Part shown: positions 1-64,000 of the stretch, one piece after another
Layout: each line of letters starts with the position of its first letter
How positions within the stretch are numbered: position 1 is the first letter of the stretch
Source of the DNA: Saccoglossus kowalevskii
Taxonomy: Eukaryota > Hemichordata > Enteropneusta > Harrimaniidae
Length of the DNA: 64,000 nt
NCBI RefSeq assembly: GCF_000003605.2
Contig: NW_003141314.1
Location: forward strand, 224,748 to 288,747
Reading direction: 5' to 3'
Notes under the pieces: generated by a model
Seen by the model: the letters and a program-made list of their open reading frames with translations, nothing else
Database searches by the model: none
What the model was told of the DNA's origin: nothing
Translations under genes and position numbers: made by a program

Positions 1-1048
1 TTATGATAGAGCTAAGGATTCTGCAAAACAAATGCAGCTTGAAAAATATTGTTTTATTGTCGACCCTAGGGAACCACATTCACACATATGTATCAAGTGA
101 TCTGAATCCATAATCTTGTTTACAAGTACATGTATATGCATTTCCAGGGTTTTAATAAACACCTTGTGTAAAATAGTAATGCATTTCTGTGATGGTGGGT
201 TTTAATTTTTTGACAGAATTTCATGAAAACAAAGAAAAATTTTCAGTGTGTGTACATACATGTATGAGTGAAGTAATGAAATTCACTTTGGGTCACTCTA
301 TTTGTGCAACTGGTGGTTTTTTCCTTCTCATGACCAGACAATTTCAATAGTATGTGAGCTAAGCTGACATTATTCAATATCTTTTTTTCAAATGGTAAAA
401 TGCCAGGGAAATGACACATTCAAGAAGAATCCAATTTACAGCTCTCTGCGGATTGAGATCGTGCTTTCAACTTTAGAATATTGAACAGTACGCAACATCA
501 AAATTTCCCCACATCAAGTGAAATCCCATTATTATGAGAAAAATTAGATCAGTGATTTGGAGAGGGGCTTCCTGATCATGGAGATATTGAAGAATAATCT
601 GTGATAAAGTCTGTGCAAATCAAATAGTTCACCATCACTTTCTTTTGCGGCCGGTTATGGCAGTTTCACCTTTTGTTTAGGCATTAGGCAAAAATACAGA
701 TAATATTTCAAGATAAGTGAAACATTCTACCTATTTTAAGAGAAATGACAGAAAACTATTCATACTGATCAGGAGATTCTAACTACAAGGTTCTTTTTCT
801 GAAAACATTGTTAAGCCTAAAGAACGAGCAGCTGTCTTAAAACCCAATCATCTGCAAAACCCATGGGAAAATGCCTGGGGTCTAGACGGACAGGTAAGAG
901 ACCAGGCAAACCAAAGGGCATTGTCTTCAACCTGTCAAATGAATTTTAACAAGTCACGCTTCATCCTTCACAAACCAGCTGATGATAATTAAGTTGTAAA
1001 AAATGAAAACGTGATAAAAAACATCTAGTTAATCACTCTTTGCATGAT
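1..1048. other. WWC intron, no distinct feature
   Basis: AT-rich sequence on the WWC gene's downstream side. I looked on the minus strand for the next WWC exon (TTQxEDPR...) and did not find one. I see nothing else distinct. Confidence 0.6.
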
Positions 1049-62400: not shown

Positions 62401-64000
62401 AAGAATTAATGAGTAAACAAATGAATTGGTGACTAATGAAATGGTGGACTATTATAGCATGGAGGTCAAATTATAGCAAGCCAGGAGGAAAGTGGAGAAA
62501 TGGAACATGGCATTAACCTTATTAGGGGTGGTAACCACCTGCAGGGGTGATGGAAGTGTCTGTGCAAAGGCAGCTTTCTGGTACGTTTCACTGGATTTCC
62601 TGGGTAATGAATCCCGGTCCAGATTAGGTGACCAACTACTTACTGGGCTCTTCTGTTTCTGCAGGTCTCCACTTCTGGGTTTCTGCTGCGGCAGTGTTGT
62701 AGCTTTGTCCTGCGCAGGAACCATGGGGTGTATTGCAAGCATTGGTTTTGGTGTGACAGGCTCAGTTTTCAGTGATTGCTGAGAACCTCTAGAGGCATAC
62801 AGCTGATAAATGTCCTTGGTCGACACCGTAGGAACTCTGGGTACCCTACCATACATTGGCAGTGAGGCAGTCTTATCAAGACTGTTGCTACTCTGGTGCC
62901 TGTGATGCTGTTGGGCAGCAAAACCCAAAATAGAGCTTTGCGACTGATGTGGAGATTTCTGTTTACTCCCTGCTAATGATCCCGGTGGCGATCCACCGCT
63001 GCTCGGCCTATCCCTCTGTGATGATAATGAATTTGTTGAATCTCTATGTGATGCAAGACTTGCGAGTGACCCCTGTCGTTTGATCTCGTTTGAAGAATAG
63101 GCATTCGGCGGCATGGAACTAGGACGCAGTACTTCTGAGTTGGCTCTTTGCATCATGGGTACAGAGTTTTCAACAGAGCCACGTCGGAAGGACGATGTGC
63201 TGTAGCTTTTCTTTGGTGGTATGGGTTGCTCTGACATACCATGTATCATATTAACTGGTCGATTCCTGTCTGAGTAACTTGGCAGTTTACATGAACTGGC
63301 TAATGATGATGTGCTTTCTGCAGATTCACTTTTTCCAGTCTTTTGACTATAGAAAAGAAACAAGGCTTCTTTCACTTTTCTACGTTCTTCAGGATCCGAC
63401 GGTTGCCTTCGTTTCATATGACTGGTGGGATCTGAATGTTTATGTCTCTGGTCTCCTGTGGCAATCTTCTGATACTGATCTGAATCAGACTTGGTATACC
63501 GATGATCAGGTTTCTCCATTTTAGGATCGGACCCTCTATGTCGTCTTTTGGGATCTGACAGATTACGTTCCTTCTTAGGATCAGATAATCTTTGACGATT
63601 TCTGTATTCTTCTTTGTACGGATCAGAATTACGATGTTGTCTTTCATGATTTGAAGTATCTATTTCAAGAGACTTGTGAAACATCTTCTCAGGATCCGAA
63701 TGCTTCTTTGGATCAGACTTCCTCTTGGGATCTGATCGCCTTCTTGGATCTGACAATCGACGCTTTTCTTTAGGTCTGTTTTGGCCAGGGTTCTCCTCAA
63801 TATCACTCAGTGGCTTAACATCATCTTGTTGAACACCTGGAAAAACTCTGCTTGGAGAAGTTGGATCATATGCATATGATATGGGCCGAGCAGGATTTGA
63901 GTCATCTGCTTTCACGTGGTCATACCACTTATTAACCTCAGCTGAAGCCGATCTCGCTGGCATGGTAGCACTTTTGGGGCTGTTCCGATCAAATTTGCCA
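50189..64000 (-). CDS. Shroom: Shroom family gene, 3' half (seven exons, ASD2 domain complete)
   Basis: An actin-associated scaffold that recruits Rho kinase (Rock) to the apical junctional cortex and drives actomyosin contraction and apical constriction. Exons run 64000-62539, 60590-60424, 53684-53301, 52898-51945, 51499-51370, 51189-50917 and 50467-50189, all with matching phases. The last three hold the ASD2 coiled coil: EDLSLLLSYLKLS, then LGEIVTEQAKSVCTPAEF, the diagnostic IINLLLSLSGRLARAEN, then YLNKEDFADFLHFVSMK and QIDDKIRLGEEQLQALKESM. These match the vertebrate Shroom C-terminus closely. Upstream are low-complexity regions rich in Ser, Pro and Lys: an SDP-repeat array, an FPPPPP motif and many SP sites. 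The PDZ domain and any ASD1 start lie beyond the right edge. The stop codon is TAA at 50189-50191. It is convergent with DCTD. Confidence 0.94.
50468..50916. other. Shroom last intron
   Basis: A 449-bp phase-0 intron within ASD2. No distinct feature. Confidence 0.85.
50917..51189 (-). CDS. Shroom: Shroom exon, ASD2 core (Rock-binding coiled coil)
   Basis: The acceptor is aacattcacag|GAGGAG and the donor CAAAAG|GTGAGA; 91 codons, phase 0 at both ends. It codes for EELLDSIKKKLDGLRAEKEE... and the segment FELFVNELDSIINLLLSLSG followed by RLARAENVYNSL. The SLSGRLARxEN stretch is the most conserved piece of all Shroom proteins and lies on the surface that meets the Rock coiled coil in known vertebrate and fly structures. 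Confidence 0.95.
51370..51499 (-). CDS. Shroom: Shroom exon, start of ASD2
   Basis: The acceptor is ttgtgcag|GGAGGAC and the donor AAAAAAG|GTAGCT. One base completes an arginine; then 43 codons run EDLSLLLSYLKLSAPKAQLL, NQALLSEDNGEVPADSEELN, KKK and end in phase 0. It leads directly into the ASD2 coiled coil. Confidence 0.88.
51500..51944. other. Shroom intron before ASD2
   Basis: A 445-bp intron; nothing distinct in it. Confidence 0.85.
51945..52898 (-). CDS. Shroom: Shroom exon rich in SP/TP sites
   Basis: The acceptor is ttctttttttag|GCCATCAG and the donor CACCAAG|GTAACT; 954 nt, two bases left open for the next exon's G (Arg). It codes for PSEVNSYGAYINQKHGSRGP and then a low-complexity stretch with many proline-directed sites (SPDKQMSPENTVSPGRRTSP). 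An acidic/lysine stretch follows, then LRPTQKTTSDYMAGLFP, which looks like a conserved island before ASD2, then a basic KRKRSVSRMNG tail. The SP sites suggest regulation by proline-directed kinases (inference). Confidence 0.9.
52899..53300. other. Shroom intron
   Basis: A 402-bp intron. A TACTGTAAATGACTTTAATT end at 52973 resembles the MITE termini at 13283 and 27195, without a clear partner. Confidence 0.8.
53301..53684 (-). CDS. Shroom: Shroom exon with FPPPPP (Ena/VASP EVH1-type) motif
   Basis: The acceptor is ttttacag|TTGGGATTC and the donor GTCCT|GTAAGT. The 384 nt code for (N)WDSVRDSERPQPEISPKHL... with a basic patch KSSKHRKKTKEK, then PTPPSSPSEDELEIVNIEFP running into five prolines, then MKHPQSVVL. 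FPPPPP fits the class-1 EVH1 ligand of Ena/VASP proteins, which vertebrate Shroom is reported to engage; here that is inference. The enclosing phases match on both sides. Confidence 0.88.
56677..56702. repeat. Hairpin, CACAGTC family
   Basis: Arms CACAGTC and GACTGTG, extended by CTCT and AGAG around a 2-bp centre with a single C/A mismatch. Related to those at 26404 and 59302. Confidence 0.55.
59302..59322. repeat. Hairpin, CACAGT family (degenerate)
   Basis: Arms CACAGT and ACTGTG around GATAGAGAG. The AGAGAGACTGTG side matches 56690-56702. Confidence 0.4.
60424..60590 (-). CDS. Shroom: Shroom exon, acidic SDSDSDSG segment
   Basis: The acceptor is gctgctacag|GTGCATCG and the donor TCTCCAAA|GTAAGT. 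It codes for 55 residues plus two bases: VHRAELVTLVQPMSSDSDSD, SGSHYEDEKLPEMRRISDGE and VFKFPPSAPEENTSP. It enters in phase 0 and leaves two bases of a codon, which the next exon's first T completes as Asn. It has no ATG-initiated long frame of its own and was found by phase and splice matching. The acidic cluster resembles casein-kinase-2-type sites. Confidence 0.85.
60591..62538. other. Shroom intron, 1.9 kb
   Basis: AT-rich. It holds a 15-bp poly-C tract at 61641-61655 and a lone TACTGTAAAAAG end at 61308. No extra exon seen. Confidence 0.7.
61641..61655 (+). repeat. Poly-C tract (15 bp)
   Basis: An uninterrupted C run inside a Shroom intron. Confidence 0.95.
62539..64000 (-). CDS. Shroom: Shroom large internal exon (SDP-repeat region), 5' end outside window
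   Basis: The frame is open to the window edge, beginning GKFDRNSPKSATMPARSASA, so the Met at 63963 is internal. Counted from that Met, residues about 70-191 carry ten SDP tripeptides in a Lys/Arg-rich context (RRLSDP, RRRSDP, KRKSDP). A Ser-rich stretch (STSSLASS, GSLASLASHRDS) follows, and PSPLQ closes the exon. The donor is ambiguous: CTGCAG|GTGGTT gives 62539 and AATAAG|GTTAAT gives 62518; both are phase 0 and fit the next exon. The SDP array is not something I recognise from vertebrate Shrooms. ASD1 may be in or before this exon but cannot be recognised by eye. Confidence 0.85.

Follow-up and report, generated by a model that had tools for sequence, protein, structure and literature searches.

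A Shroom, DCTD and WWC gene trio in the acorn worm Saccoglossus kowalevskii and its probable kinship with two mammalian gene neighbourhoods

Gene content and order at the locus

A stretch of 64 kb from the genome of the acorn worm Saccoglossus kowalevskii (the window; bases 224748-288747 of a 509,651-bp contig, NW_003141314.1, in an assembly of 572,110,611 bases in 4830 contigs) was analyzed for its gene content. The window carries, side by side, the 5' part of a WWC (KIBRA family) gene on the minus strand, a DCTD gene on the plus strand, and the 3' half of a Shroom gene on the minus strand. Whole Shroom and whole WWC both exceed the window, and the flanks of the contig were read for the remainder; positions outside the window are given in window coordinates. 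A first-pass annotation had proposed that Shroom and WWC share a strand, with Shroom upstream and DCTD reversed between them, and the exons and protein matches bear out this arrangement: Shroom (-) lies upstream of WWC (-), and DCTD (+) sits between the two, head-to-head with WWC. The features on which this rests are as follows.

4067-4135, minus strand: WWC exon 3, second WW domain (structure match, splicing)
5618-5658, minus strand: WWC exon 2, linker (splicing)
38516-38643, minus strand: WWC exon 1, with the start codon at 38643 and the first WW domain (structure match, GT-AG splicing)
38644-39175, no strand: divergent region between the WWC and DCTD start codons (532 bp, distinguished by its observed/expected CpG ratio, CpG o/e)
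39176-39282, plus strand: DCTD exon 1 (splicing; translation may instead start at 39077, an in-frame ATG farther upstream)
41256-41355, plus strand: DCTD exon 2 (splicing, structure match)
41526-41661, plus strand: DCTD exon 3 (splicing, structure match)
42206-42419, plus strand: DCTD exon 4, with the HAE and PCNEC zinc-site motifs (splicing, structure match, Pfam)
46186-47102, no strand: run of N, 917 bases between DCTD and Shroom
50192-50485, minus strand: Shroom last exon, C-terminal part of SD2/ASD2 (open frame, Pfam, structure match)
50875-51294, minus strand: Shroom SD2/ASD2 exon (open frame, Pfam)
51349-51507, minus strand: probable Shroom exon, N-terminal of the SD2 core (open frame; position and coding score, without a separate match)
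51944-52954, minus strand: probable Shroom central exon, 337-amino-acid open frame (position and coding score)
53300-53731, minus strand: probable Shroom exon with proline stretches (position and coding score)
60423-60614, minus strand: probable Shroom exon (position and coding score)
62455-66822, minus strand: probable large Shroom exon, 1456-amino-acid open frame, running past the window end at 64000 (position and coding score)

The four DCTD exons, spread over 39176-42419 (+), are joined in phase by GT-AG introns. Their product matches human DCTD best (structure 2w4l, 5e-76; 110 of 144 residues identical) and contains the deaminase domain PF00383 (1.5e-26) with HAE and PCxxC zinc motifs, which places it closest to animal DCTD. 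A last short C-terminal coding piece was looked for past exon 4 and was not found.

Splicing of four WWC exons, three of them in the window and the fourth to its left, starting at -2614, yields an N-terminus of 130 amino acids that comprises the first WW domain, a linker, the second WW domain and the start of the coiled coil. All three introns are GT-AG, and the first is about 33 kb long. Against human KIBRA (6j68), this N-terminus scores 3e-55, with 83 of 123 aligned residues identical, and Pfam recognizes both WW domains; the gene thus has the tandem WW domains and coiled coil of the WWC family. Further minus-strand coding pieces reach to about -15.5 kb, those beyond exon 4 being assigned to WWC solely from their strand, position and coding score. 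Among them is a weak C2-like stretch at -11465, found by a sliding match, in a piece that has no Pfam match. A WWC intron also holds a 31-copy tandem array of a 49-bp unit (1049-2558).

Shroom is identified by its paired SD2/ASD2 exons, for which Pfam gave 1.3e-26 and 2.5e-29 and the Shroom2 structure 5f5p gave 1e-16. On the same strand, 86 kb beyond the right edge of the window, lies a PDZ-type exon (149926-150198) whose best match in PDB, the PDZ domain of Shroom4, is weak (2e-4) and which has no Pfam match; about 80 kb separates it from the large Shroom exon. Exons between the SD2 pair and the PDZ-type exon were assigned by position and coding score only, and a protein search with the 337-amino-acid central exon returned 1935 candidates, none at E <= 0.001. 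The remaining Shroom PDZ exons were not found. Within the SD2 region, away from the WWC-DCTD start, a 600-bp stretch (51601-52200) has a CpG o/e of 1.12.

No sign of a second copy of WWC, DCTD or Shroom was seen in searches of the 572-Mb assembly, which were run exon by exon so that the counts are lower bounds. The ASD2 family gave two matches, both of them exons of the Shroom gene in the window, while a DCTD exon and the fourth WWC exon each matched only themselves.

The run of N between DCTD and Shroom adjoins a tandem array of a 56-bp unit (45630-46183), and it may therefore represent an unassembled part of that array. Other runs of N lie in the flanks, at contig positions 124748-140220, 155333-194575, 222377-224747, 296486-296535, 320453-344374 and 354908-363619; one falls inside WWC, adjoining the left edge of the window. 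On the plus strand, convergent with WWC and beyond its 3' end, lies a single open frame of 1447 amino acids with TPR repeats (-27512 to -23172), which is of the NPHP3 type above the Pfam cut-off (5e-41). Farther left, a HERC2-like gene on the minus strand has coding pieces from about -84 kb to -72 kb, and the one piece tested contains RCC1 repeats and matches a HERC2 structure at 9e-65.

The divergent start region of WWC and DCTD

The start codons of WWC and DCTD lie 532 bp apart, or 433 bp if DCTD starts at the upstream in-frame ATG at 39077. The CpG o/e of the 532-bp region is 1.07, compared with 0.44 for the window as a whole, and CpG richness peaks in this neighborhood: among about 620 overlapping windows of 600 bp, 11 of the top-ranking 12 start within 37801-39301. 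Two short motifs also fall here. The sole TGACGTCA of the 64-kb window is at 39148, inside the divergent region, and the sole AAGATGGCG, at 39173-39181, overlaps the DCTD start codon and straddles the right edge of the region. We take these motifs to be a cAMP response element (CRE) octamer and a YY1-like ATGGCG start. In 100 shuffles of the whole window, TGACGTCA averaged 0.30 copies, with at least one copy in 26, and AAGATGGCG averaged 0.14 copies, with at least one in 14; since shuffled sequences can hold copies too, it is the location of the motifs, and not their presence, that is notable.

Together, these features fit a predicted bidirectional promoter, and the function that we infer for the region is that WWC and DCTD of the acorn worm most likely share one CpG-rich promoter of this kind. 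The pair resembles known divergent gene pairs with a shared CpG-rich promoter in the 532 bp between its start codons, its high CpG o/e, its putative CRE octamer and its YY1-like start. It differs from them in that the acorn-worm pair is known from sequence alone, and in that the human WWC2 and DCTD starts are, we presume, about 180 kb apart. The compact CpG-rich start region points to a possible regulatory explanation for the linkage of WWC with DCTD, and nothing comparable suggests one for Shroom with WWC.

Mammalian neighborhoods and the ancestry of the trio

The WWC family was duplicated in vertebrates. WWC1, WWC2 and WWC3 are given as the genes that correspond to Kibra in mammals, under a section heading on whole-genome duplication (PMC7035326); this and the other papers below are cited for individual passages. 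The gene order listed for a human Xp deletion runs ANOS1, FAM9A, FAM9B, TBL1X, GPR143, SHROOM2, CLDN34, WWC3, CLCN4, MID1, HCCS (PMC11675438), and because this Xp22 list reads GPR143, SHROOM2, CLDN34, WWC3, CLCN4, CLDN34 sits between SHROOM2 and WWC3. SHROOM2 and WWC3 flank the pseudoautosomal boundary in dog and, tentatively, in alpaca (PMC6627929, PMC7830431). DCTD and WWC2 belong to one human 4q34.3-q35.1 region of 4.39 Mb (PMC2739276) and appear, with TENM3, CLDN22 and CLDN24, in a list of genes close to one breakpoint (PMC9354344); at 14 Mb on cattle chromosome 27 they are in neighboring loci, where uncharacterized LOC genes are also listed (PMC12350131). Three further placements, of shroom3 near LGALS1B (PMC10343441), DCTD at 4q35.1-qter (PMC3843522) and GPR143 adjoining SHROOM2 (PMC9039016), were not drawn on in the argument.

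In the mammals covered by these passages, then, Shroom occurs beside WWC and DCTD near WWC. The proposal of the first-pass annotation that each human block keeps a different pair of the trio agrees with this, SHROOM2-WWC3 in the one and DCTD-WWC2 in the other. Its claim that SHROOM2 and WWC3 are neighbors at Xp22.2 agrees with the human list, save that CLDN34 intervenes, and the two genes are also neighbors in the dog and (tentatively) alpaca accounts; its claim that DCTD and WWC2 are neighbors at 4q35.1 holds as far as their placement in the same small region in human, as also in cattle, their strict adjacency being our assumption.

We consider it probable that the trio is a conserved microsynteny block, inherited from one ancestral deuterostome trio that was duplicated in vertebrates and then underwent reciprocal loss. 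The course of events that we infer would begin before the hemichordate and vertebrate lineages parted: in their last common ancestor, Shroom, DCTD and WWC would have been adjacent, WWC and DCTD would have been in divergent orientation, and Shroom would have shared the strand of WWC and lain upstream of it. The block would have been copied by whole-genome duplication in vertebrates, after which the Xp22 copy would have retained SHROOM2-WWC3 and lost DCTD, while the 4q35 copy would have retained DCTD-WWC2 and lost Shroom. A shared promoter would tend to keep WWC and DCTD linked, and the Shroom-WWC linkage would most simply reflect slow erosion of an old order. The probability of both mammalian pairings, when side and strand are counted in, is roughly 1e-7, a figure that assumes random gene order together with paralogue numbers and human strands that we take as given, and that must not be read as a test.

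Such a history has parallels. As in the ancient microsynteny surveyed across animals (PMC8851819), neighboring genes retain their order in distant lineages, although the survey's main text names none of the trio genes and the evidence for the trio comes from one genome and mammals. As in the paralogous blocks left by the two rounds (2R) of vertebrate genome duplication, with reciprocal loss, WWC2 and WWC3 each retain a different former neighbor; here, however, the shared block comprises just three genes, the other tested neighbors differ, and the paralogy is taken from a paper and general knowledge.

The extent of the block was assessed with six families of other human neighbors, none of which gave a match on the trio contig. 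CLC channels had 12 matches in the assembly, teneurin NHL had 8, and heme lyase (HCCS) had 1; the matches to claudin (2, best 5e-5), Ocular_alb/GPR143 (1, E 5e-4) and Foie-gras_1/TRAPPC11 (1, E 8e-6) were weak. As none of these families was matched on the 510-kb contig, the shared part is the trio. Each of these searches proceeded one exon at a time, several depend on a lone weak match, the runs of N were unread, and the contig covers 509,651 bp only, so the negatives exclude neither a missed exon nor linkage at the chromosome scale.

Several observations weigh against common descent of the neighborhoods. The block was not seen to extend to any of these six families, and the left neighbors past the WWC coding pieces, the gene with NPHP3-type TPR repeats and then the HERC2-like gene, are presumably not neighbors of the human WWC genes. 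The link between Shroom and DCTD crosses the 917-base run of N. The strand directions of both human pairs are those that we assume, as are the strict adjacency of human DCTD and WWC2 and the interval of about 180 kb between them. The figure of 1e-7 takes no account of linkage at the scale of the chromosome, under which an independent meeting becomes likelier, and the pairs were examined because they had already been noticed. The evidence base is one acorn-worm genome plus mammals. CLDN34 intervenes between human SHROOM2 and WWC3 (PMC11675438). Finally, two other hemichordates are without apparent microsynteny with each other, according to a figure legend (PMC11175523); survival of the trio is therefore noteworthy, yet gene order changes fast.

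This last observation also bears on an alternative in which the genes shared only an ancestral chromosome, and local shuffling brought them together independently in the acorn-worm and vertebrate lineages, so that the adjacencies are not homologous. Local order does shuffle in the two hemichordates, given their lack of apparent microsynteny (PMC11175523), and the tested families of other human neighbors are absent from the matches on the trio contig. Independent shuffling would nonetheless have to re-form two different pairs, on the same side and in the same directions if the assumed human strands are right, and, with heavy shuffling elsewhere, chance would be less likely to spare just these pairs; we regard this account as unlikely. 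It is quite doubtful, too, that a single pair is ancestral (WWC-DCTD, kept together by a common promoter, being the likeliest), with the neighborhood of Shroom arising by coincidence or from a scaffolding error in one lineage. The tight divergent start region of WWC and DCTD, the run of N crossed by the Shroom-DCTD link, and the position of CLDN34 between SHROOM2 and WWC3 in the human list (PMC11675438) speak for such an account, but SHROOM2 and WWC3 are neighbors in the human (CLDN34 aside), dog and alpaca papers.

A further proposal adds to common ancestry and does not compete with it. Shroom and WWC are regulators at the apical cell cortex, and gene regulatory blocks of such a kind are known in animals. 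Enhancers of Shroom or WWC, placed in the long introns, could discourage rearrangement and leave DCTD as a bystander. The introns are indeed long (33 kb in WWC and about 80 kb in Shroom, from the PDZ-type exon to the large one), and both regulators act at the apical cortex. Mammalian DCTD-WWC2 and SHROOM2-WWC3 are on different chromosomes, however, and no three-way constraint therefore survived there; we think it improbable that the trio is such a block. The stronger version, in which shared control kept the two apical-cortex regulators linked for more than 500 million years as a deep regulatory block, possibly bilaterian in age, and DCTD was carried along through a promoter in common with WWC, seems to us decidedly improbable. 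Of the explanations weighed, inheritance of one ancestral trio followed by reciprocal loss remains the one that we favor.

Shroom, WWC, kibra and DCTD are not named in the main text of either PMC8851819 or PMC11175523. No statement of the trio or of its invertebrate pairs was found in the main texts and passages covered; an earlier report is possible, and the block may already be present, unnamed, in a supplementary table.

Mitochondrial contig and significance of the trio

The assembly also includes a mitochondrial contig of 17,037 bp. Its COX1 was recognized by a Pfam family match and its other protein genes by eye; COX1 is inverted, and ND1 comes after ND2. At nine ATA codons of COX1, the aligned mammalian residues are Ile in five cases, Val in two, Leu in one and Met in one, and since most are Ile, ATA is read as Ile. 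The single AAA of COX1 aligns with Lys, AAA contexts in ND1 and COX2 look like Lys by eye, and the anticodon of tRNA-Lys is TTT. ATA as Ile is common to echinoderms and hemichordates, whereas AAA is Asn in echinoderms and Lys in Saccoglossus (PMC2697986). The Saccoglossus code has been described as AUA Ile, AAA Lys and AGA Ser with tRNA-Lys UUU, and its gene order as differing from that of Balanoglossus by an inversion of COX1 and a transposition of ND1 or ND2 (PMC3121625). Both the code and the gene order of the contig are consistent with these passages on Saccoglossus. A molluscan origin, which the low GC content had suggested, was rejected on the strength of this hemichordate code and gene order; the mollusc hemocyanin family PF14830 had no match either, but that negative carries no weight, as the control was not matched.

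The trio by itself leaves views of genome evolution unchanged. If the neighborhoods are homologous, it would offer a clean and small case in which one ancestral neighborhood gave rise to two mammalian ones by reciprocal loss, and SHROOM2-WWC3, where the pseudoautosomal boundary has been placed in dog and, tentatively, in alpaca, would be traced to one source together with DCTD-WWC2. The compact candidate for a divergent promoter would, in turn, join a regulator of the Hippo pathway to a nucleotide enzyme.

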